A DNA stretch of 64,000 bases. Origin: Candidatus Cloacimonadota bacterium (lineage in GTDB: Bacteria > Cloacimonadota > Cloacimonadia > Cloacimonadales > Cloacimonadaceae). The notes under the pieces were generated by a model. The model saw only the letters and a program-made list of their open reading frames with translations, ran no database searches and was not told the DNA's origin. The position numbers and the translations under genes were made by a program. Below, one piece after another: positions 44,641-56,621 of the stretch. Within the stretch, counting starts at the first letter, position 1. Each line of letters opens with the position of its first letter. The DNA is taken from assembly GCA_020532545.1 (NCBI GenBank), contig JAJBAW010000002.1:1-64000 (forward strand), read 5' to 3'.

Positions 44641-44667
44641 AGCATGTTGACAAACTGTCCACATGCT
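44641..44667. promoter_or_regulatory. AbiE operator-like inverted repeat
   Basis: AGCATGTTGACA-AAC-TGTCCACATGCT, 11 of 12 bases paired, ending just before the GGAGGT ribosome site. A TTGACA at 44628-44633 lies 8 bases upstream. AbiEi antitoxins are known to repress their own operon through inverted repeats, which fits this site. Confidence 0.6.
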
Positions 44668-44676
44668 GGAGGTAAG

Positions 44677-45291
44677 ATGATAGCAGAATTAATGAAAGTG
44701 ACTAAACAACCTTTTGATTACCAATATCTTTGCGGTTTGCTGAAAGATTTTAAGCACCCCCGTAATAAAATATCCAGCCTGATCAGCTCTGGAGAGTTAA
44801 TTCCCCTCAAACGGGGCTTGTATATATTGAGCGAGCAATACAACCAGCAAGTAATACCAGAAGTGATTGCGAATGCGCTATATGGCCCCTCCTATATCTC
44901 GAGCGATTATGCCTTGGCCTACTACGGCATGATACCGGAGCGCGCCTATAACATCAGCTCTGTTACAACCGGCAGAAAGAAGCTATATCATACCAAGGTT
45001 GGCACTTATAGTTATCGATCCCTGAAGCTTTCCTATTACCAAATAGCTTACCATATCCAAAACAAAGAGGGCACAAACTTCCTGATTGCCACGCCGGAAA
45101 AGGCACTGTGCGACAAACTTTATTATTATCCTGTTCAACCAGGAATTGCAGAGCTTGATCAAGCTCTCAGCGAAGATTTGCGTATTGATCACATTGCCTT
45201 GCAAAGTCTAAAGGGCAGTCTGATTATGAAGATTGCTAAGACCGCAAATTCCACCAATCTCAATCTCTTAAGTAAAATGGTAAAACAATGA
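44677..45291 (+). CDS. Type IV toxin-antitoxin AbiEi-family antitoxin
   Basis: A 204-residue protein from ATG 44677 (GGAGGTAAG site; an upstream frame to 44644 would run through the operator). N-terminal winged HTH (NKISSLISSGELIPLKRGLYIL near residues 33-55), then the AbiEi core: VIANALYGPSYISSDYALAYYGMIPE, SVTTGRKK, and IATPEKALCDKLYYYP. It represses the operon and counters the AbiEii nucleotidyltransferase. Its stop overlaps the toxin start by 4 bases. The pair is a phage-defence or stabilising module. Confidence 0.85.
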   Translation: MIAELMKVTKQPFDYQYLCGLLKDFKHPRNKISSLISSGELIPLKRGLYILSEQYNQQVIPEVIANALYGPSYISSDYALAYYGMIPERAYNISSVTTGRKKLYHTKVGTYSYRSLKLSYYQIAYHIQNKEGTNFLIATPEKALCDKLYYYPVQPGIAELDQALSEDLRIDHIALQSLKGSLIMKIAKTANSTNLNLLSKMVKQ

Positions 45292-46160
45292 TAAAGAATC
45301 AAGCCCTTACAACGCTTATAGAACGCCTTTCGCCAAAGACCACGGCAGAATATAAACAGGCCCTGCTGGTCGCTATGCAGGAGATTTCTCTATTAGGCTT
45401 GTGGCGCAGCGGTTTCTTTGAGTATGCTGCTTTTTATGGTGGAACTGCGCTCAGTTTGTTTCACAGCCTTGACCGCTTCTCAGAAGACCTGGATTTTTCC
45501 TTGCTGAGGCCCCTGCCGGAATTCTCGCTAAGCGCTTTTCTGGCCGGAGTTCGCCAGGAGCTAAGAGCGTGGGGCATAGATGCAGATCTTGCTATGGTGC
45601 AGAAGACAAGCGGCAGCATACAAACAGCTAATATCAAGGCTAATACCCGGTCTATAATGGCTTCTATTTCGCTTCCTGCCAATATGTTGAAAGGGTTTCA
45701 CAGTGATGAGATAAGCCATGTGAAGTTTGAGCTAGACCCCTATCCACCCTGTAGTTTCGCCACTGAGATGAAGTTCTTGCTGTCTCCCATACCCTTCACT
45801 GTTAAGCTTATGAGCCCCCCTGATCTCTATGCGGGGAAAATGCATGCGCTTCTGGCACGTAACTGGCAGAATCGCGTTAAGGGCCGGGATTGGTATGATT
45901 TTATCTGGTTTGTAAAGCATAAGATTCCGCTAAATCTACCTCACCTCGAGGCACGTTTGAAGCAGAGCGGCCATCTGGATTATGAAGCTACATTAACGGT
46001 AAGTCAATTCTCCATAATCTTGCAAAAACGCATAAGAACAGTAGATTATGAGCAGGCAAAGCAGGATGTCTTAGCCTTTATCTTGGATCCACGTCAGTTG
46101 GAAAACTGGTCAGAGGAGCTCTTTGCTCAGCTTGCAGAGCTAATAACCTTCCAAGAGTAA
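45288..46160 (+). CDS. AbiEii-family nucleotidyltransferase toxin
   Basis: A 290-residue protein of the DNA polymerase beta-like nucleotidyltransferase family. The active site GGTALSLFHSLDRFSEDLDFSLL is near residues 49-71, with both catalytic Asp. The C-terminal motif AGKMHALLARNWQNRVKGRDWYDFIWFV (near 180-207) is typical of AbiEii/JHP933 proteins, which modify tRNA or other targets to arrest growth. It is translationally coupled to the AbiEi gene. Confidence 0.9.
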   Translation: MIKNQALTTLIERLSPKTTAEYKQALLVAMQEISLLGLWRSGFFEYAAFYGGTALSLFHSLDRFSEDLDFSLLRPLPEFSLSAFLAGVRQELRAWGIDADLAMVQKTSGSIQTANIKANTRSIMASISLPANMLKGFHSDEISHVKFELDPYPPCSFATEMKFLLSPIPFTVKLMSPPDLYAGKMHALLARNWQNRVKGRDWYDFIWFVKHKIPLNLPHLEARLKQSGHLDYEATLTVSQFSIILQKRIRTVDYEQAKQDVLAFILDPRQLENWSEELFAQLAELITFQE

Positions 46161-46483
46161 TTATATAGTATCAAGTAATTCACCAAATCGTATCAATTTA
46201 GTTGCAAACGCCTGTTTTCATGTCGGCAGAGCCGCACAATCTTCGCAAACCCTCTAAACACATACAAGATAATCCGTGTAAATCCGTTCGCTCCGTACAA
46301 TCCCTGAGACCATCAAATAGGAGCTATTCCAGATAATGGTCAAAAAGTTCTTGACAAGCAGATCGGCCTGGGTTTAACTGACACCAGATAGCTTATTAAC
46401 TAATATCAAAGAACTTAATAAAACAATAATGAGCAATATCAGCTCTTTAACCAAGACCCAGAAACGGGAAGAAAGGAAAGAAT
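46161..46483 (+). promoter_or_regulatory. 323-bp leader with promoter and AT-rich dyad
   Basis: Holds TTGACA (46351-46356), 17-base spacer, TTAACT (46374-46379), then TTATTAA (46393-46399) and TTAATAA (46415-46421) as an inverted repeat, before the HTH-M29 gene. A further stretch of 10-base-period sequence (AATCCGTGTAAATCCG) is near 46270. No gene was seen. Confidence 0.4.
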
Positions 46484-47851
46484 ATGATAAAAAATGTAAA
46501 AATAGTCTCAGAGCATGCACAAGTGATGGAACTCGCCAATGAACTCAAGTTTGAAATGCTGAAAGAATTGATCCGCTCCGCCGCCACCTGTCAGCAACTG
46601 GCCACAGCTTTTGGGGAAAGTAAACAAAAAGTGCATTACCACCTGAACAAACTGCTGGAAGCCGACTTGATCAAACTGGTGGAAGATACCCACGCCAACG
46701 GCAAAGAAGTTTACTATCGTGCCACTGCCAAGAATTTCGTCTTGGATTTTGCCCTGGGAGAGCATCTGAGCGAAGGCACCATCAATGGCCGGGGTGTGAT
46801 TCAGAGCATCCTGGAAAGCGAATACAGATTGCCTCTTTCCGCGATCGCTGCCCGTCTTTTGAAGGATTCGTTGAAGCTGAAAGCGCGCCAAAAACTGCTC
46901 ATAGTTACCGGAAAATACAATCTGCCTTTGGTAGAAAAGATCCTTTTGGAAGCCGGCCGCATGAGCATCCGCAGCACCGTGATCTATCAGGATGCCGAGC
47001 TACTGAGAGCCAAGTTTGAAGAATATTCTCTGCCGGCTTTCAATGCGGATTACGAGCACTTTAACCGTCTGCTGAAAAGCAGCGACGTCTATCTCAACCT
47101 CAATGGAGAAGCCCGCAATGTCCAGCTGCTTGATAAGGACAAGATAAAACTGAGAATCGGCCATTTTGCCAAAAGCGGGCAGATCATCCAGCAGAAGAAA
47201 ATCCGGGTAGCGATGATGCCGGGGCTGCTGCGAGACACTTTATCGGATAAATCCATCGAGAGTGAGCTGCAATTCTGGAAAGCTTTGGATATAGATTATG
47301 AACAGCTCAGCAAAGACACCATCGAAGTCTGTGCCAAATACCAGGACAAGGAATATCTGGAGCTAAGCGGCCAGGATACGCGTCTACGCTTTGGTGTGCA
47401 GAGCATCTTCGCCGAGACCGGCTCCTTCACGAACCATCCCTCCCAGAGCCCGGTGATCAACTATCCCGGCGGTGAAGTCCTGATGGTTCCGGTCCCCTTC
47501 AGCATGAATGGAGAAATCAAGGGCGATGTGGCTTATGCCTTTGGTGAACAGATCCAGGAGCCCCACCTTGTCATCAAAAACAACGAAATTAAATCCTTTT
47601 CGGCCAAAAGCAACAAAGAGCTCCTGGCCAAAGCTATTATTTCCGGAGGCCTGGACGGACGCAAGATAGCCCTCATCTGCCTGGGCACAAATCCCAATGT
47701 CTCTTTGGGAAATATAGATCTGTCTTACAAACAAAAATCCCACGGTTTGCTCTCGGTATATTGGGGAAACAACCGTTCTCTGGGCGGCACTGTAGCCGGC
47801 AATACAGAGTGGTTTTTGCAGATCGATAAATTCAAACTAAAAACATATTAA
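46484..47851 (+). CDS. ArsR-type HTH fused to a degenerate M29 aminopeptidase-like domain
   Basis: A 455-residue fusion. Residues 15-85 form an ArsR/HTH-20 winged helix (LKELIRSAATCQQLATAFGESKQKVHYHLNKLLEADLI). From about 130 the sequence follows the M29 aminopeptidase fold: LIVTGKYNLPLVEKIL, INYPGGEVLMVPV near 325-337 with Glu331, IALICLGTNPNVSLGNI near 395-411, and VYWGNNRSLGG. Where M29 enzymes have metal-binding His (HIAFG and a later HxD) this protein has LSVYWG and EWF. It is probably a sensor-regulator, not an enzyme. It starts after AAGAAAGGAAAG and is 12 bases ahead of a secreted-protein gene. Confidence 0.65.
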   Translation: MIKNVKIVSEHAQVMELANELKFEMLKELIRSAATCQQLATAFGESKQKVHYHLNKLLEADLIKLVEDTHANGKEVYYRATAKNFVLDFALGEHLSEGTINGRGVIQSILESEYRLPLSAIAARLLKDSLKLKARQKLLIVTGKYNLPLVEKILLEAGRMSIRSTVIYQDAELLRAKFEEYSLPAFNADYEHFNRLLKSSDVYLNLNGEARNVQLLDKDKIKLRIGHFAKSGQIIQQKKIRVAMMPGLLRDTLSDKSIESELQFWKALDIDYEQLSKDTIEVCAKYQDKEYLELSGQDTRLRFGVQSIFAETGSFTNHPSQSPVINYPGGEVLMVPVPFSMNGEIKGDVAYAFGEQIQEPHLVIKNNEIKSFSAKSNKELLAKAIISGGLDGRKIALICLGTNPNVSLGNIDLSYKQKSHGLLSVYWGNNRSLGGTVAGNTEWFLQIDKFKLKTY

Positions 47852-47863
47852 ACCGAGGTAAAA

Positions 47864-50800
47864 ATGAAAACGAGAATACTCACAATATTCCTTCTCGTAT
47901 GCGCGGGGCTGCTTTTGGCCCAATGGCATATAGAAGAAGGCTTTGAAGGTAGCCCGAATCTGCCCGCAGGGTGGACTACTCACGACGACGGCGATGGCAG
48001 CATCTGGCGCGTGATCGCAAACAATCCCCATAGCGGCAGCCAGGCTGCTTTTGTGGATAACTATCTGCCAAATCAGAATCATGACTGGCTGGTTTTGCCA
48101 CAGATCACTGTGAATGCAGGCGATTATCTGGAATTCTACACCCGTGCCTGGTACGGCACCGAAAATCTGAAAGTGTATGTCTCCACCAGCGGAACTCAAA
48201 TCAACAATTTCAATACAATGCTGCTGCATATGCAAAACCTGAATACCACATATCAGATGGGAACAGTCTCTCTGGATAGCTATGCCGGGCAGAATATCTA
48301 CCTGGCTTTCTATTGGGAATGCGATACTTACGGCATCTTGATCGATGATGTGAAGGTGGGACAGATTCCCACGGTGACTCCGGAGCTCAATCTGCCTGAG
48401 ACGATTAGCTTTTATCAAAGCGACGTGCTGCAGATGGATTTTAGCCCCTATATCGTGGTGACAGATCCAGCCTCAGCCAGCCTCAGCGTGAGCGGAAATA
48501 CCAATATCACAGTGAACATCTCCGGACTTAACGTAGCCTTCAGCGCTCCGGACTATGCCGGCACCGAAGAGCTGACCTTCACCCTGCTGGACACAGAAAG
48601 CAACCAGACTGCGACGGATATGATCTCCGTGAGCGTTCTGGCAGATCCCACGGCTGATCTATATGTAGCCCAGGTCATCTCTCCCCGTTATCATGAATTT
48701 GTGGGCCTTCCCTTCACCCCCCAGATTATGGTGGGCAATGCTGGCACGACTGTTTTCAGTGGCAGCATAGAGATCGTACTGAACGTCTCAAATCAAATAG
48801 AGGAGAGCCTTCATGTCGATACTGCTATTATAGATACAGAAATTCTACCCAACGAAAGCGTCGCCGTCAGTTTTGGCCTGAGCTATACACCGGTGCAGGT
48901 GGGGACGCTCAATTACAGCTTCCACATCCTCACCCAGGATGACAATCCCGATAACAACAGTTTTACCTTTGTCAGTGAAGCGGTGATCCGCGAAAGCAGC
49001 GGCGGACCGGATGGTTTTGGCTATCGCTATATAGATAGCAATGAACCCCTGGGGCCGGAGTATGACTGGATCGAGATCAGCGAGACTGGCACTTCCACCA
49101 TCATGTATGGTGTGAATGCTTTCCATGGCGATGATAACTTCAGCGAGCCCATCCCCCTGGGTTTTGATTTCCCCTTCTATGGTAGTACTTACTCCAGCGC
49201 TTATGTGGATATCAACGGTGAAATCCTGCTGGCAGACAATAGCTGGTACACCAATTTCCCCGGTTCCGGCTGGGGCGGAGATGGTAATATGTTCAACTAT
49301 ATGTACCCTATTCCGGGCTATACGCAAATGCCAGGTTTGATCGCGGTCTATTGGGATGATCTGGAAGCAGATGAGGGCACGGGTGATGTGTATTTCCAGA
49401 GCTTCGGCACTGCGCCAGAGCGTTATACAATCTTTCAGTGGAATGATTTGAGATTCAGAGCCGGCACGGGAGCCCAGCAGCTCTTGAAGTTCCAGCTAAT
49501 CATGCATGAAAATGGTGATCTCAAGATGCAATATCACACTGTAGCCACCGGACAGACCGGCGCTACTGTCCCGCATGACCATGGACGTAGCTCCACCATC
49601 GCAATTCAAAATGCTGCGGCTGATGCGGGCCTGTGCTACTTGAGAGAGATCGTGCAAGGTAATACATATATCGGAGTAGAACCTGCCGGAAACCTGCTGC
49701 ACGATAGCCTGGCCATCCTCTTCTACGGTGGTGAGGATACCCAAGCCCCCATCATCACCCACAAAGCTGCGGGAAATACCTTCTCGCAGGACATCCTGCT
49801 CACAGCCCGCATCATCGATATGAGTGAGATCGCACAAGCCACTATGTATTTCGATCCGGGTACGGGATGGCAGTCCATGGAACATACAGGAATAGAGCAG
49901 AATGACTACAGCTTTGCCGTGTCTGATCTGCCTCAAGGCGGTAGCTTCAAATACTACTTCCAGGCAGTGGATGCCGAAGGCAATCTGAGCCGCTTGCCTG
50001 CAGGAGCTCCAGATGAGCACTATAGCTTCCAGATTTTACCCACTGCAGATGCTCAGGTGCTGATCGCCTATAGTGGCATTCAGGATTATCAGCGCATCGA
50101 ATTGCCCGTCTATGAGGCACTCCTGCAAGAGCTTCAGATCGGCTATGATGTCTATAACTGGGAAGAGTACGATGAGTACGCTATCGATCCCCAATATGCA
50201 GGCGTGCTGGCCTATGCGAATACAGGCTCCGTGAATGACAAGATGAAGTATTTTGCCGGTGTTTTGACAGACTATTTGGATCTGGGAACAGTTCAGAGTC
50301 CCAAAAACCTCTGGTTCTCCTCCGATGGTTTGGCCTCTTCTCAACATGGTCAGAGCAATTCCAGCCCCGTCCGCCGGCTGATGAGTGGCTATTTCCGCAC
50401 GTCTTATGTTGCCACCGGATTTGGCGGCGGCACAAACGGTCTGGGTGGCCCCGACAATTTCAGCTATGAACACGGCACCATCAAGGCTTTGCCGGGAACT
50501 CCGGTGGGCACTGTAAACCAGGAATACCCAGTCTATGCGAATTCCCCGGATTGCATCTTCCCCAATGACGCTGCCGGATCCCCATATTATGATGGTGTGC
50601 CTTATCCTGAGATTGGCGCAAACTACGTCTATGCCTTTGAAGATGGCCCCATCAATGGAGATGCCTATCTGTATCATGGCGTAGCCGCTACCACTGTGGA
50701 TACACCAGTCTACCGGACTATGTATTTCAGCTTTGATTTCTCTCAACTGACTAATGCTGCTCATCAACAGGAATGGATGGATGATCTGATGAGCTGGTGG

Positions 50801-51121
50801 AATATCGTCCCCATCAGCACTTCCGATGCATTCGCTCCGAGCCTCAGCAGCGGCTTGGACAGCATCTATCCGAACCCCTTCAACCCAAGTACCTCCGTTC
50901 GTTACAATATAGCAAGGGCCGAAAAGGTATCCTTGAACATATATAACCTCAGAGGACAAAAAGTAAAAACCCTAATCAACGAAAGTAAAACCGCAGGAGC
51001 ACACACCGTAAGCTGGGATGGCACAGATGAAGCCGGAAACCCCGTAGCCAGCGGAGTCTATTATCTGCGCCTGCAAACTGATACTGCGCGTGAAACACGC
51101 AAACTAACCATGATCAAATAA
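47864..51121 (+). CDS. Large secreted protein with anchor-J domain and C-terminal Por-like sorting domain
   Basis: A 1085-residue protein with signal peptide (ILTIFLLVCAGLLLAQ), a choice-of-anchor-J/MAM-like domain (HIEEGFEGSPNLPAGWTTHDDGDGS), Ig-like regions (to about 370), a jelly-roll segment with FPFYGSTYSSAYVDINGEI near 440, and a region (VLIAYSGIQDYQRIELPVYE, about 730-980) like N-terminal-cleaved polysaccharide/amide hydrolases. It ends in a FlgD/type-A sorting domain (SIYPNPFNPSTSVRYNI ... GVYYLRLQTD ... KLTMIK). Such domains send proteins to the surface in FCB bacteria. The substrate is unknown. Confidence 0.75.
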   Translation: MKTRILTIFLLVCAGLLLAQWHIEEGFEGSPNLPAGWTTHDDGDGSIWRVIANNPHSGSQAAFVDNYLPNQNHDWLVLPQITVNAGDYLEFYTRAWYGTENLKVYVSTSGTQINNFNTMLLHMQNLNTTYQMGTVSLDSYAGQNIYLAFYWECDTYGILIDDVKVGQIPTVTPELNLPETISFYQSDVLQMDFSPYIVVTDPASASLSVSGNTNITVNISGLNVAFSAPDYAGTEELTFTLLDTESNQTATDMISVSVLADPTADLYVAQVISPRYHEFVGLPFTPQIMVGNAGTTVFSGSIEIVLNVSNQIEESLHVDTAIIDTEILPNESVAVSFGLSYTPVQVGTLNYSFHILTQDDNPDNNSFTFVSEAVIRESSGGPDGFGYRYIDSNEPLGPEYDWIEISETGTSTIMYGVNAFHGDDNFSEPIPLGFDFPFYGSTYSSAYVDINGEILLADNSWYTNFPGSGWGGDGNMFNYMYPIPGYTQMPGLIAVYWDDLEADEGTGDVYFQSFGTAPERYTIFQWNDLRFRAGTGAQQLLKFQLIMHENGDLKMQYHTVATGQTGATVPHDHGRSSTIAIQNAAADAGLCYLREIVQGNTYIGVEPAGNLLHDSLAILFYGGEDTQAPIITHKAAGNTFSQDILLTARIIDMSEIAQATMYFDPGTGWQSMEHTGIEQNDYSFAVSDLPQGGSFKYYFQAVDAEGNLSRLPAGAPDEHYSFQILPTADAQVLIAYSGIQDYQRIELPVYEALLQELQIGYDVYNWEEYDEYAIDPQYAGVLAYANTGSVNDKMKYFAGVLTDYLDLGTVQSPKNLWFSSDGLASSQHGQSNSSPVRRLMSGYFRTSYVATGFGGGTNGLGGPDNFSYEHGTIKALPGTPVGTVNQEYPVYANSPDCIFPNDAAGSPYYDGVPYPEIGANYVYAFEDGPINGDAYLYHGVAATTVDTPVYRTMYFSFDFSQLTNAAHQQEWMDDLMSWWNIVPISTSDAFAPSLSSGLDSIYPNPFNPSTSVRYNIARAEKVSLNIYNLRGQKVKTLINESKTAGAHTVSWDGTDEAGNPVASGVYYLRLQTDTARETRKLTMIK

Positions 51122-51132
51122 GGGAGAGAACC

Positions 51133-53523
51133 ATGAAAAGAACTATCGTCCTTGTCTTTAGCCTCCTGCTCAGCATCACTTTACTCAGTGCGGGTGATTT
51201 CATCATCGGCACCGGTGATGATGATACTAATCAATTGCCAGTCTATGGCTATGCCAATTACGGCTGGAGCAAATTCTTCTACAACAATGCAGAAATGACG
51301 GCCGCGGGCTTTACCACAGCCCAAAGCATCGAGAAAATCGCCTTTTATGTAGATACAGAAACCACTGACTACGTAATGGACAATCAACAGGTGTATATGG
51401 GCTATTTCTATGATAGCGAAGCCAACACATCCTACCAGAACCCAGTCAATCATACCCTGGTTTACTCCGGCTCGATCTCCTGGAATGGGCCCGGATGGAT
51501 GGAGATAATATTGGACACGCCCTATACCTGGGACCCCACCCCTGGCTGGAATCTGGAAATCCTCTGGGAAAATCATGATGGCAGCAGGATAGCCGGACCT
51601 CCCAAATTCCTGACTTCTGATACAGCTCACTACAGTTCTGCCTATAAAACAAACAGTGGCTCCTTTCCCACCAGCAGCGGTTCCCGCAAAAAGTACCACC
51701 CTGATATCTGGTTTAGCACTCCACCTACAGAGCCACCCACTCCTGCCGTAGCACTGGCTCCTGCCCATGAGGCTATAGATGTACAGATCGATACCCAGTT
51801 GCGCTGGCAACACACCGGTGGTTCACCATATCAGTATCTGCTCTGGTTCGGTACAGACAATCCTCCTTCTAATATCGCAAACGGCCTTGTCCTGACAAAC
51901 ACCAGCTACAACCCCGCTGAGTATTTGCAATATAATACCACCTACTATTGGAAAGTGATTCCCCAAAATAACATTGCTCCGGCCATGAACTGCCCGGTCT
52001 GGAGCTTCACCACCATGGCAGATCCAGCTATCGCTACATTCCCTCATCTGGAAAGCTTTGATGGCGATTTCCTGCCCGCAGGATGGGAATCCTACTCTGG
52101 CACGCTGGCAGACCCCTCCAATATGGGGGTGAGTGGCTCCACCGGATGGGCGCAAAAGAATTGGCTCAATATCGCTGGCGACGACAAAGCTGCGAGCATC
52201 AACAATTGGGGGCCTATCAGCGGCTATCTCATCTCCCCACTATTCAATATCCCTTCCGAGGACTATGTTCTAAAGATCGATGCCGCTCTCCTCAAAACTA
52301 ATCAAACCCCAGATGGCACCCCGCCCTTGCAGACCAATACCGATGACCAATTTGCCATCCTCATCGGTGATGGCTTCACCTGGAGTATTGCCAATATCGT
52401 CCGTGAATACAACAACAGCGGCTCGGAATATCTCCTGCACGATATCCCTGTAGATGGTGAAACCATCACCATCCCGCTCACCGGACATACAGGGCATGTG
52501 CGTTTTGCCTTCTTTTCCGGCTCCCTTGAGCTAAACGATGACAATGACTTCATGCTAAACAACTTCTTCGTGGGTGTGCCATCAGCAGAAGCTGACATCC
52601 CTGAAGGCGTGAATACACTCATTGGAGATGCTGGCGACAGCGTTATCATCACCGGTGGCGATGCCAACCTCAATCCGGAAGGCGTGATTCCCGAGTGGCC
52701 TAATGGAAACATGGTTATATCCGGCAATTATTATCTGGAACTCCTTGGCACCGGCCCCTGGACAGTGGTCTTCACTACCGCAGCTCCCTGGGGTGCATAT
52801 TACAGTGGTGGCGTATGGAATCCCGTGGAAAACCTTGCTGGCACCATCACCTTCAATATTCCAGTTCGCGGATCAAAAGATTTGGGCGTCCCTATCGTTC
52901 TTGGCGATGCAGATCCCACCCTTCCTGTAGAACTCAGTAGCTTTAACGCAGTGCTTACTGCCCAGAGCTTTGTGAAACTCAGTTGGGTCAGTGAATCTGA
53001 GACCAATTTGCTGGGCTACAGAGTATATCGGAATGATACTGATGAGCTCGAAAGCGCCATCCTGATGACTCCTGTGATGATTCAGGCCACCAACACTTCC
53101 AGCACTCAGAGCTACAGCCTGGAAGATTACGAAGTAAGTATGAATAATACCTACTACTATTGGTTGGAAGCTGCAGACTATGCTCACAGCTCTTTCTTCG
53201 GTCCGCAGTTCGTGGAAGTCACCGGTGAAGGTATCCCCCAGCTCCCCACTCAGACCACCATGAGAAGCGCATACCCAAATCCTTTCAAAGCAAACACCAA
53301 TACCAATATTGAAGTTTCTGTGAAAGAAGGGGACAATGGCACTGTAACAATCTATAACATCGTTGGCCAGGCAGTCAAAAGCTTCCCAGTCAAAGAAGGT
53401 ATGAACAATCTGCAATGGAACGGCAGAGACAGTAAAGGTAGTTTCTGCGGAAGCGGTGTTTACTTCTACAAACTCAGCACCACGTCCCAAAACATGACCA
53501 GAAAAATGATTATCATGAGATAG
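51133..53523 (+). CDS. Secreted paralogue A with Fn3/anchor-J domains and Por-like sorting domain
   Basis: A 796-residue protein: signal peptide (IVLVFSLLLSITLLSAG), a domain with QLPVYGYANYGWSKFFYNNAEMT, an Fn3 unit (LAPAHEAIDVQIDTQLRWQHTGGSPYQYLLWFGTDNPP, about 215-255), a choice-of-anchor-J domain (ATFPHLESFDGDFLPAGWESYSG, about 295-480), further beta domains, and the C-terminal sorting domain (SAYPNPFKANTNTNIEV ... IYNIVGQAVKSF ... TRKMIIMR). It is a near-duplicate of 53595-55262. Surface-attached, function unknown; 11 bases after the preceding secreted gene. Confidence 0.75.
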   Translation: MKRTIVLVFSLLLSITLLSAGDFIIGTGDDDTNQLPVYGYANYGWSKFFYNNAEMTAAGFTTAQSIEKIAFYVDTETTDYVMDNQQVYMGYFYDSEANTSYQNPVNHTLVYSGSISWNGPGWMEIILDTPYTWDPTPGWNLEILWENHDGSRIAGPPKFLTSDTAHYSSAYKTNSGSFPTSSGSRKKYHPDIWFSTPPTEPPTPAVALAPAHEAIDVQIDTQLRWQHTGGSPYQYLLWFGTDNPPSNIANGLVLTNTSYNPAEYLQYNTTYYWKVIPQNNIAPAMNCPVWSFTTMADPAIATFPHLESFDGDFLPAGWESYSGTLADPSNMGVSGSTGWAQKNWLNIAGDDKAASINNWGPISGYLISPLFNIPSEDYVLKIDAALLKTNQTPDGTPPLQTNTDDQFAILIGDGFTWSIANIVREYNNSGSEYLLHDIPVDGETITIPLTGHTGHVRFAFFSGSLELNDDNDFMLNNFFVGVPSAEADIPEGVNTLIGDAGDSVIITGGDANLNPEGVIPEWPNGNMVISGNYYLELLGTGPWTVVFTTAAPWGAYYSGGVWNPVENLAGTITFNIPVRGSKDLGVPIVLGDADPTLPVELSSFNAVLTAQSFVKLSWVSESETNLLGYRVYRNDTDELESAILMTPVMIQATNTSSTQSYSLEDYEVSMNNTYYYWLEAADYAHSSFFGPQFVEVTGEGIPQLPTQTTMRSAYPNPFKANTNTNIEVSVKEGDNGTVTIYNIVGQAVKSFPVKEGMNNLQWNGRDSKGSFCGSGVYFYKLSTTSQNMTRKMIIMR

Positions 53524-53594: not shown

Positions 53595-55262
53595 ATGCAA
53601 AAGACTTTACTACTAATCTTTACCCTGCTGCTAAGCATCACCTTGCTTAGTGCAGGTGACTTCATCATCAACAGTAATGATCGTGCCCAAAATCAGCTGC
53701 CAGTCTATGGCTATGCCAATTACGGCTGGAGCAAATTCTTCTACAACAATGCAGAAATGACGGCCGCGGGCTTTACCACAGCCCAAAGCATTGAGAAAAT
53801 ATCCTTTTATGTGGACACTGAAACCACTGACTATGTAATGGACAATCAACTGCTGTACATGGGCTATTTCTATGATAGCTCATGCACTACGTCTTACCAA
53901 AACCCAGCCTATCACACTCTGGTTTACTCCGGCACGGTCACGTGGACAGGTCCCGGCTGGGTGGAGATCGTATTGGACACTCCTTATACCTGGGATCCTA
54001 CCCTGGGCTGGAATCTGGAAATCCTCTGGGAAAACCGTGACGGCAGTAAGCTCGGCGGGCCTCCCAAATTCCGCACTACTGATACAGACTACTACAGTTC
54101 CGCCTATAAGACTAATGATCCCTCCTTCCCCACAAGCACAGGTACTCGCAAAAAGTACCACCCCGATATCTGGTTTGCCTCTGCTGCTACCGAGCCGCCC
54201 ACCCCCGCTGAAGCGCTGAAACCTCTCCATGAAGCTATAGATGTGGATATCACCACAAACCTGCGCTGGCAACACACCGGAGGTTCTCCATACGAATACC
54301 GGCTCTGGTTTGGCACAGACAATCCCCCTTCCAATCTCGAAAGCGCTCTGGTGACCACCGCTACCAGCTATACCCCCGCTGAACGTCTGCAGTATGGTAC
54401 CACCTATTATTGGAGAGTGGTCCCTCAAAATAACATTGCTCCGGCCCTGAACTGCCCGGTCTGGAGCTTCACCACCATGGCAGACCCTGCCATCGCCACC
54501 TTCCCGCATCTGGAAAGCTTCGATGGAGCCTTCCCTCCCACAGGATGGGAGCTGTACTCCGGCACGCTTTCGGACCCCTCAGACATGGGTTTGAGCGGAT
54601 CCAGCCGCTGGGAACAGAAGAACTGGCTCAATATCTCTGGAGCAGATAAAGCAGCAGGCATCAATATCTGGGGATCCATGAGCGGTTATATGATCTCCCC
54701 ATTCTTTAATATCCCTTCCGATGATTATGTCCTACGGTTCGATGCCGCTCTGTTGAAATATGGCCAAACTCCGGATGGAGTCCCACCCTTGCAGACTAAT
54801 ACCGATGATCAATTCGCCATCCTCATCGGTGATGGCTTTAGCTGGTCACCTGCCAATATCGTAAGAGAATACAACAACAACGGCTCTGAGTATGTCTTGC
54901 ACTCTATCCCCGTAGATGGCGAAACCATCACCATCCCATTCACAGGGCATACAGGGCACCTGCGCATTGCCTTCTTTGCCGGTTCTCTTGAAGGTAACGA
55001 CGACAACGACTTCATGCTGAACGACTTCTTCGTTGGCATACCATCAGCGCAGCTTGGGGCTCCTGTGGCCAGCATCTCCACAGATGCCAGCACTGGACTA
55101 CCTCTTTTGAGCTGGGATGCGGTACCCGCTGCCAACGTATATCACCTATACAAAAGCAATGATCCTACTATGGATTACCTACATTTCGATAGCACGAGCG
55201 AGACCAATTACCTTTTGGATCCCGCAGAAGAGAAAGCATTTTTCAAAATCACGGCAGAGTAA
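53595..55262 (+). CDS. Secreted paralogue B lacking the sorting domain
   Basis: A 555-residue protein nearly identical to paralogue A for about 480 residues: signal peptide, QLPVYGYANYGWSKFFYNNA domain, Fn3, anchor-J domain. It then switches to a short Fn3-like tail (SWDAVPAANVYHLYKSNDPT) ending EKAFFKITAE. The FlgD/Por-like domain at the end of paralogue A is absent, so it should be released or sorted differently. DNA is identical over about 90 bp (51239-51329 versus 53701-53791), suggesting recent duplication or conversion. Confidence 0.75.
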   Translation: MQKTLLLIFTLLLSITLLSAGDFIINSNDRAQNQLPVYGYANYGWSKFFYNNAEMTAAGFTTAQSIEKISFYVDTETTDYVMDNQLLYMGYFYDSSCTTSYQNPAYHTLVYSGTVTWTGPGWVEIVLDTPYTWDPTLGWNLEILWENRDGSKLGGPPKFRTTDTDYYSSAYKTNDPSFPTSTGTRKKYHPDIWFASAATEPPTPAEALKPLHEAIDVDITTNLRWQHTGGSPYEYRLWFGTDNPPSNLESALVTTATSYTPAERLQYGTTYYWRVVPQNNIAPALNCPVWSFTTMADPAIATFPHLESFDGAFPPTGWELYSGTLSDPSDMGLSGSSRWEQKNWLNISGADKAAGINIWGSMSGYMISPFFNIPSDDYVLRFDAALLKYGQTPDGVPPLQTNTDDQFAILIGDGFSWSPANIVREYNNNGSEYVLHSIPVDGETITIPFTGHTGHLRIAFFAGSLEGNDDNDFMLNDFFVGIPSAQLGAPVASISTDASTGLPLLSWDAVPAANVYHLYKSNDPTMDYLHFDSTSETNYLLDPAEEKAFFKITAE

Positions 55263-55310: not shown

Positions 55311-55338
55311 GAGGCGCTCTGAGAGCGCCTCTTTTTTT
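55311..55338 (+). terminator. Rho-independent terminator
   Basis: GAGGCGCTC-TGA-GAGCGCCTC followed by TTTTTTT, 48 bases after the paralogue B stop; ends the secretome operon. Confidence 0.92.
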
Positions 55339-55400: not shown

Positions 55401-55934
55401 CTATTCGTTGAAGAAGTATTGTAGCCCGATATGAAAACCCAGGTATCTGGTTTCATTGCTTCTGCCTGAGCCCCCACCATAATTTCCAATCCCCATCAGA
55501 TAGCCCGCTCCCAGATCCAGATAGGCATGGGGTATCAAAGACACCAGATAGCCCGCTTTGGGGTTTAGAAACATTCCCGAAGACGTGCCATTCCAATGTG
55601 ATCCTCTAACACTTGAGGATTGATGCTGAAAATCGATGCCGGCATAAAAGTTCTTCCAATAGTATTTCGTGCCGATACCTACGCCCACGATAGATGTACT
55701 AACATCGCCTTGACTCTGAGAGATAAACTTAAAGATCAGGTCTAAAGAACTGTTATCCAGGATAAAGACTCCCAATTCGGGCTGAAGGGTAATGGTCGTT
55801 AAAGTTTCAGCATCTGAACTTGCTTTGGCGGAAGAAAACGATGCTGTGCCGCCCAGATAGTTGGTGCCTTTGGAGAAGGCAAAGACAGAGCAGACGACAG
55901 TAAGGGAAAGGATGATCAAAGCTACTTTTTTCAT
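55401..55934 (-). CDS. Small outer-membrane beta-barrel protein 1
   Basis: A 177-residue protein: signal peptide (VALIILSLTVVCSVFAFS), then an OmpX/OmpA-like eight-strand pattern: LGGTASFSSAKASSDAETLTTITLQPELGVFI, YYWKNFYAGIDFQHQSS, PKAGYLVSL, and a terminal aromatic strand IGLQYFFNE. It is a clear paralogue of the next gene (shared GTxxLGGxAxFxSxKAxSDA and GIGxxYxWxNFYxGxD patterns). Function unknown. The start follows AAGGAGTTAAGCC. Confidence 0.75.
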   Translation of the reverse strand: MKKVALIILSLTVVCSVFAFSKGTNYLGGTASFSSAKASSDAETLTTITLQPELGVFILDNSSLDLIFKFISQSQGDVSTSIVGVGIGTKYYWKNFYAGIDFQHQSSSVRGSHWNGTSSGMFLNPKAGYLVSLIPHAYLDLGAGYLMGIGNYGGGSGRSNETRYLGFHIGLQYFFNE

Positions 55935-56057
55935 GGCTTAACTCCTTGGTGAAATAATGAAACCTTTAAAGCCAATAAGATTGTTTTTGTCAAGTATTAC
56001 TTCGAATGTTTTGTGTTATTCGTTTATTTAAGTCATATATGTAGATTGGGCAAAAGA

Positions 56058-56087
56058 AACAGCCCCCTCCCTGGGGAGAGGGCTGTT
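56058..56087 (-). terminator. Terminator after beta-barrel 2
   Basis: On the minus strand AACAGCCC ... GGGCTGTT with a partly paired interior, followed by TCTTTTG. It ends the 56103-56621 gene. Confidence 0.75.
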
Positions 56088-56102
56088 ATTTCAAGTCAAG
56101 AA

Positions 56103-56621
56103 TTAGTTAAACAGGTCTGACAAGAAGACTTGGAGACCCACGCCAAGATGTAAGACAGATTGTTCATTACTTCCAGAGCCGTCTCCGCCGTAGTCGCCAA
56201 AGCCCATTTGGTATTTCAGGCCCAGATCGACAAAGACGTTTTCAGCCAAGGGCATCATATAACCAAGTTTTGGTACAAGGTACATGGATGTTACGGTATT
56301 TGAGCCCCAAGCCTGAGACATGTAATCAAGCTCAAGTCCGCCATAGAAATTATTGTAGAAATAGCGACCACCGATACCAATACCGAGGTCTGTATCACCA
56401 TCGTAGCTCATGATGTTAAGATTCATATCTACACTGAGATTATCCATCACAAAATAACCGACGATCGGATTGAGGTAAAATACGGTAATGGCATCAGCAT
56501 CTGAATTTGCTTTTTGAGATTCAAATGCAGCGCTGCCGCCGAGGTTAATCGTTCCTTGATCGAACGCGAAAGCTGCCACAACGAAGAGCAGCGAGACAAG
56601 AATTAATAATCCTTTTTTCAT
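56103..56621 (-). CDS. Small outer-membrane beta-barrel protein 2
   Basis: A 172-residue paralogue of the 55401-55934 protein. Signal peptide (LLILVSLLFVVAAFAF), then strands INLGGSAAFESQKANSDADAITVFYLNPIVGYFV, IGIGGRYFYNNFYGGLELDYMSQAWG, and a terminal VLHLGVGLQVFLSDLFN. The most conserved part is the first strand and the GSGSNE/GRSNE loop before the last strand. The two genes are separated by a terminator and are likely transcribed apart. Confidence 0.78.
   Translation of the reverse strand: MKKGLLILVSLLFVVAAFAFDQGTINLGGSAAFESQKANSDADAITVFYLNPIVGYFVMDNLSVDMNLNIMSYDGDTDLGIGIGGRYFYNNFYGGLELDYMSQAWGSNTVTSMYLVPKLGYMMPLAENVFVDLGLKYQMGFGDYGGDGSGSNEQSVLHLGVGLQVFLSDLFN

Follow-up and report, generated by a model that had tools for sequence, protein, structure and literature searches.

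The window analysed here is a stretch of 64,000 nucleotides from a Candidatus Cloacimonadota bacterium, and its forward strand carries a four-gene unit in which the gene for a 455-aa predicted regulator is followed by three genes for secreted proteins (Table 1). A first-pass annotation, made by a model from the sequence alone, had described this layout and was right about it: the regulator ORF ends with its stop at 47851, and a gap of 12 bases separates it from the 1085-aa ORF, whose ATG lies at 47864. All three downstream products are secreted proteins, the first two with sorting tails of the type IX secretion system (T9SS).

Table 1. Features of the regulator and cargo unit, in positions of the window
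Feature	Position	Strand	Basis or remark
Predicted operator GTCAAAAAGTTCTTGAC, dyad GTC-N11-GAC	46339..46355	+	Conserved in relatives (sequence comparison)
-35-like TTGACA over right half of operator	46351..46356	+	Sequence; most f1 relatives have it at the same place
HTH-pseudo-M29 regulator, 455 aa	46484..47851	+	Intact ORF, Pfam, profile-profile comparison, Foldseek
Winged helix-turn-helix, residues 17-66 of regulator	46532..46681	+	Pfam HTH_20, E 2.5e-11
M29-fold domain without metal site, residues ~116-455 of regulator	46829..47848	+	hhalign, Foldseek, ligand table
1085-aa T9SS cargo with signal peptide, gingipain-adhesin-like domain at residues 23-129, and C-terminal sorting tail	47864..51121	+	Profile matches, 44/46 linkage
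Secreted 796-aa T9SS-tail protein	51133..53523	+	Apparent tandem duplicate of next gene; not seen in relatives examined
Secreted 555-aa protein, third cargo	53595..55262	+	Common in family f1
Terminator-like hairpin closing the four-gene unit	55311..55331	+	Consensus match alone; such matches in the region are near the shuffle mean

The sorting tail of the 1085-aa cargo is recognised by both TIGR04183 (42.1 bits against a cut-off of 23) and PF18962 (32.4 against 27), and its choice-of-anchor-J/gingipain-adhesin-like domain by NF038128 (E 1.6e-23) and PDB 3m1h (E 5.9e-9). Profile searches detected no peptidase domain in this cargo, and its AlphaFold2 model (pLDDT 57) was too poor for a fold search. 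We also considered it as a C25 peptidase and rejected the idea; there is no C25 match, and hhalign against C25 cargos aligns the adhesin/MAM-like part only. The 796-aa and 555-aa proteins are closely related over their N-terminal ~490 residues and differ at their C-termini, the former ending in a T9SS tail and the latter having no detected tail. The translocon component SprA is encoded in this genome (G000:C4; 487 bits summed in frame, cut-off 200) and was found in 71 of 71 good genomes, so that the T9SS is present. Rfam elements were absent from the window at gathering thresholds.

Two further gene pairs flank the unit. Directly upstream, at 44644-46160, is an AbiEi/AbiEii-like type IV toxin-antitoxin pair (AbiEii E 4.9e-32), and among the relatives examined L002 alone has, at that position, two ORFs that match the pair in their lengths and their overlap. 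On the minus strand at 55401-56621, two consecutive genes for small proteins of secreted or outer-membrane type (177 and 172 aa) converge on the terminator-like hairpins of the operon.

A winged helix fused to an M29 fold without its metal site

The regulator combines an ArsR-type winged helix with an M29-aminopeptidase fold in one 455-aa protein, both segments lying in a single frame as the first-pass annotation had read them. Pfam HTH_20 scores above its cut-off (Table 1), which places the N-terminal domain among winged helices of the HTH_20/HTH_5 type; HTH_5 itself falls just below its cut-off (21.6 bits against 22), and the curated ArsR/SmtB metalloregulator profile NF033788 reaches 29.5 bits against a cut-off of 55. 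The annotation had asked for a profile search and a structure prediction against M29, and both bear out the fold. PF02073 gives 36.7 bits (cut-off 27), and hhalign of 18 regulator relatives against 12 stand-alone M29 proteins gives a probability of 100 and E 1.5e-39 over 343 columns. The AlphaFold2 model, built from 10 aligned sequences (pLDDT 79.9, pTM 0.71; confidence is low at the N-terminus and in the linker that follows the HTH), has AmpT (2ayi, E 2.3e-18) and PepS as its best Foldseek matches, followed by NicX, AmpS, CgnE, and CgnB.

The HTH-M29 fusion is an old family. The closest named match to the regulator is a 93% identical protein in a Cloacimonadota MAG, and matches occur in 64 of the 125 Cloacimonadota genomes searched, a few of these being fragments or M29 proteins without an HTH. 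We distinguish a core group of 47 relatives (44-93% identity), a divergent group of ~478-aa proteins in family f13, and a group in a second phylum, where 16 of 20 genomes carry the fusion and which supplies 15 relatives. Across 387 genomes from many phyla, the matches examined outside Cloacimonadota were either M29 proteins in which no HTH was detected or HTH proteins on their own, except in G334, which belongs to that second phylum. In a tree of the M29 domain each of the three regulator groups is monophyletic, and a single common origin is possible (p-AU 0.21).

Compared with the M29 aminopeptidases AmpT (2ayi), AmpS (1zjc), and PepS (4icr), the fold is common over ~340 residues and PGGE, GTN, and the C-terminal strands align; the regulator differs by its added N-terminal HTH and by the loss of four of the five metal ligands, and we expect no stand-alone enzyme role for it. 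We take the AmpT ligands to be E250, E316, H345, H376, and D378, with the numbers of the first three verified by counting. In the hhalign-based alignment these correspond to E331, L397, S424, E442, and F444 of the regulator, so that E331 alone is kept, as had been proposed from the sequence. Across the core group, Glu is found at the position of E331 in 45 of 47 relatives and at that of E442 in 46 of 47, and the other three columns almost always hold non-ligand residues. None of the five ligands is kept in the divergent group (L/M, S, S/T, I/V, Q) or in the second phylum (K, G, T/A, S, G), and each is kept in 10-11 of the 12 stand-alone M29 proteins. The canonical centre is thus absent in all three regulator groups, through different substitutions. 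Near the columns of the former ligands, conservation exceeds the average of the domain only weakly (shift p 0.10 in the core group, 0.11 in the divergent group, and 0.03 in the second phylum).

A metal-independent or new catalytic activity may nevertheless exist in the M29-like domain, which would then make the protein, like PutA or NadR, a regulator and an enzyme at once, with changed chemistry. The near invariance of E331 and E442 in the core group fits such a role, and NicX shows that an M29-like fold can switch chemistry; however, the retained residues differ by group and two of the three groups keep no ligand, and we regard an enzyme here as very unlikely. In its M29 fold and disrupted metal site the regulator resembles CgnE.

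Other M29 proteins were seen in the course of these comparisons. The same genome encodes a 678-aa protein with a C-terminal M29 domain (L090 3773-5809, G000:C85) that is widespread in Cloacimonadota; its motifs GEV, GEF, H, and HLD appear by eye to be kept, and its N-terminal half has no Pfam match. A 354-aa stand-alone M29-like protein (L103 2822-3886, G058) has no HTH and apparently also lacks the metal ligands.

Linkage of regulator and cargo

The gene-order survey that the first-pass annotation had called for shows the cargo linkage to be kept across Cloacimonadota and present in the second phylum. An ortholog of the ~1,050-1,090-aa cargo lies directly 3' of the core regulator in 44 of the 46 cases with downstream sequence, mostly after a gap of 2-17 nt. 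The two exceptions are L069, with the cargo directly upstream of the regulator, and L070, where a different T9SS-tail gene comes first and a cargo fragment lies further downstream. Full-length cargo orthologs are found in genomes with the regulator and otherwise only in G018, G026 (whose contig begins about 200 nt upstream of the cargo), and G027, all of genus g7, in which the regulator was not found. G018 retains a deletion scar (L167 443-589) in which ~28 codons from the start of the regulator gene and ~18 from its end survive, with intact cargo genes and a decayed operator. Two paralogous regulator-cargo pairs occur in G108 and G115, every regulator beside its own cargo.

The partners differ between groups. 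In the second phylum, secreted proteins with the same tail type follow the regulator in most sufficiently long contigs, and over the ~300 C-terminal residues before the tail they share homology with the window cargo (hhalign probability 98.7, E 2.8e-16). In the divergent clade (f13), C25 peptidases with a C25 propeptide account for every one of the nine complete downstream cargos and for five of the ten other neighbouring cargos. An HLGH motif and one Cys, presumably the catalytic residues, are invariant in the downstream set. C25 (gingipain-family) genes stand on both sides of the divergent regulator in L088, L093, L094, and L099. The surface degradation suggested for this system at first reading is therefore borne out as a link to proteolysis in the divergent clade, with its C25 partners, and not in the window operon, where the cargo is adhesin-like with no peptidase domain detected.

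The predicted operator

The first-pass annotation had assigned promoter-like and dyad sequences to 46351-46421 and singled out a TTATTAA dyad for a DNA-binding test. That dyad, TTATTAA...TTAATAA at about 46393-46421, is not conserved in relatives; the element that is conserved, at 46339-46355, overlaps the assigned interval only in part. The upstream regions of eight relatives have one block in common, GTCAAAAAGTTCTTGACA, and the remainder has diverged to 55% mean identity. Among the 46 testable upstream regions of the core group, the exact GTC-N11-GAC is present in 37 and a GTA variant in seven more, giving GT[C/A]-N11-GAC in 44. Four-base dyads of the element were observed in 23-25 regions, compared with 0-0.2 expected. 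Part of the dyad is a -35 box, so that some of its conservation is promoter conservation. The GTC-N11-GAC dyad was not found upstream of the divergent or second-phylum regulator genes.

Genome-wide scans were pattern searches. In the window genome the operator dyad is unique at up to two mismatches. The f1-type pattern RGTCAAAAANNTCTTGACWA, with at most one mismatch, gave 37 matches in 125 genomes and the reversed control pattern 14. All 18 exact matches lie directly upstream of a regulator, and six more, with one mismatch, are at regulators; four precede the gene of a 914-973-aa secreted protein (in G001, G004, G009, and G003) that is 45-52% identical to the 796-aa and 555-aa products of the operon, three of these sites having the same sequence before orthologous genes in genus g2, and the remaining nine matches are scattered. 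The f10 form, TTGGTC-N11-GACCAA, gave 13 matches, 11 of them at regulators, and its control one. Exact f10-type sites without an adjoining known regulator were noted at G101:C72:106-128 and G059:C258:7962-7984. Where the regulator has been lost and the cargo kept, the dyad is broken in G018 (GTA...GGC) and missing from G026 and G027, which still retain TTGACA.

Linkage could reflect descent alone, the cluster having been conserved without any regulatory connection. The core members do form one clade, so the cluster counts are not independent; however, the dyad is kept within diverging flanking DNA, stands in genus g2 before a cargo gene of that family that is not linked to the regulator, and was lost along with the regulator, and the same gene layout recurs in the second phylum. 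We give hardly any credence to descent without regulation. Linkage and operator conservation both support the proposal, made at first reading, of a non-catalytic M29 fold and HTH dedicated to a secreted-protein operon, and the outcomes that had been named as speaking against it did not appear: the M29 fold is present, the ligands are not all conserved, and homologues are both fused and linked to secreted proteins.

The placement of the dyad bears on the mode of action. In f1 the dyad overlaps the -35 box with its right half-site, and the -10 hexamers are weak; in f10 a separate TTGACA lies mostly upstream, and the dyad is found in the -35/-10 interval or covers the -10. Both positions would suit a repressor, and because the dyad overlaps the promoter, repression is the likely mode. 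The regulator could instead be an activator whose dyad recruits RNA polymerase at the -35 box once a ligand is bound. The f1 arrangement, with a dyad ending at the -35 box and weak -10 hexamers as in activated promoters, is consistent with activation, but the f10 dyad occupies a repressor position, and G026 and G027 keep TTGACA and not the dyad, as if the promoter works alone. We consider an activator unlikely.

A proposed mechanism and its relation to known systems

Comparison among relatives establishes the fusion, the fold, the ligand loss, the linkage, the operator conservation, and the joint loss of regulator and operator, and the predicted control of the adjoining T9SS-cargo genes by the regulator is well supported. 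We propose an autorepressor of T9SS-cargo genes with a dead aminopeptidase pocket as ligand sensor, and we consider this model as a whole fairly probable. It would be a one-component transcription factor in which a winged helix is joined to an M29 fold that, without its two-metal catalytic centre, serves as the sensor domain. A dimer would bind the GTC-N11-GAC dyad over its own promoter and block RNA polymerase, thereby controlling the regulator itself and the type IX-secreted surface proteins, and in genus g2 it would probably also act in trans on a further secreted gene. Its affinity for DNA would change once a small ligand occupied the former substrate cleft; a peptide or an amino acid is the most plausible candidate.

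HTH regulators that use an enzyme fold as sensor are already known. MocR/PdxR-type regulators, like the HTH-M29 regulator, have an HTH fused to a recruited enzyme fold, which in MocR is that of an aminotransferase; the family and targets are different. The winged helix is common to the regulator and the ArsR/SmtB regulators, including PH1932 (1uly), and members of that family bind a palindromic site overlapping the promoter, a pattern with which the predicted dyad at the regulator's own promoter agrees. In contrast to them, the regulator has a 340-residue pseudo-peptidase as effector domain and scores below the NCBIfam metalloregulator cut-off. What is new here is the predicted GT[C/A]-N11-GAC dyad before the core genes, overlapping the promoter.

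The best precedent, by analogy, for ligand binding of this kind is CgnE, which has an M29 fold, holds no bound metal, and binds the peptide CgnA (PMC10070186). CgnE and CgnB of crocagin biosynthesis (6zsu, 6zsv) have the M29 fold without aminopeptidase activity; they differ from the regulator in having no DNA-binding domain and in their proposed role, which is RiPP precursor presentation and not regulation (PMC10070186). The M29-like domain might alternatively sense the cargo itself (for example its signal peptide, its C-terminal tail, or the nascent chain) and so couple transcription to secretion. The near one-to-one pairing of regulator and cargo, seen also in the paralogous pairs of G108 and G115, agrees with this, as does CgnE, a dead M29 fold that binds a specific gene-encoded peptide (PMC10070186), and in Porphyromonas gingivalis the C-terminal-domain cargo PorA is reported to affect PorXY-SigP signalling (PMC7712824). 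However, the signal peptide and sorting tail are the only parts common to all partner cargos, and many other proteins that have no regulator gene nearby carry such tails, which makes cargo sensing improbable in our view, and we retain a small ligand as the preferred reading.

Transcriptional control is tied to type IX secretion in Porphyromonas as well, where PorX/PorY are reported to act with SigP (PMC4800418) and PorA to feed into that control (PMC7712824). As described there, PorX/PorY-SigP is a two-component system with a sigma factor acting on the secretion machinery genes, whereas the HTH-M29 protein would be a one-component regulator beside each cargo. In the literature searched we found neither an HTH-M29 regulator, where absence is not proof, nor a regulator dedicated to single T9SS cargos. 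More tentatively, and with some doubt, we suggest a general class of one-component regulators in the cytoplasm, every member paired with a T9SS cargo gene of its own. The dead M29 domain would read peptides from extracellular proteolysis or parts of the cargo and switch the cargo on or off; the class would span two phyla or more and include adhesin-type as well as C25 cargos.

In the little-known Cloacimonadota, then, a DNA-binding protein built on a dead peptidase almost always adjoins, and probably controls, genes for large surface-exported proteins. The secretion system, which is known chiefly from the bacteria of gum disease, would thereby have a type of switch not described before. The finding offers a concrete predicted operator and binding domain that are open to testing in a phylum that has received little study, and a way to approach how these bacteria may time the deployment of their surface proteins and C25 peptidases.
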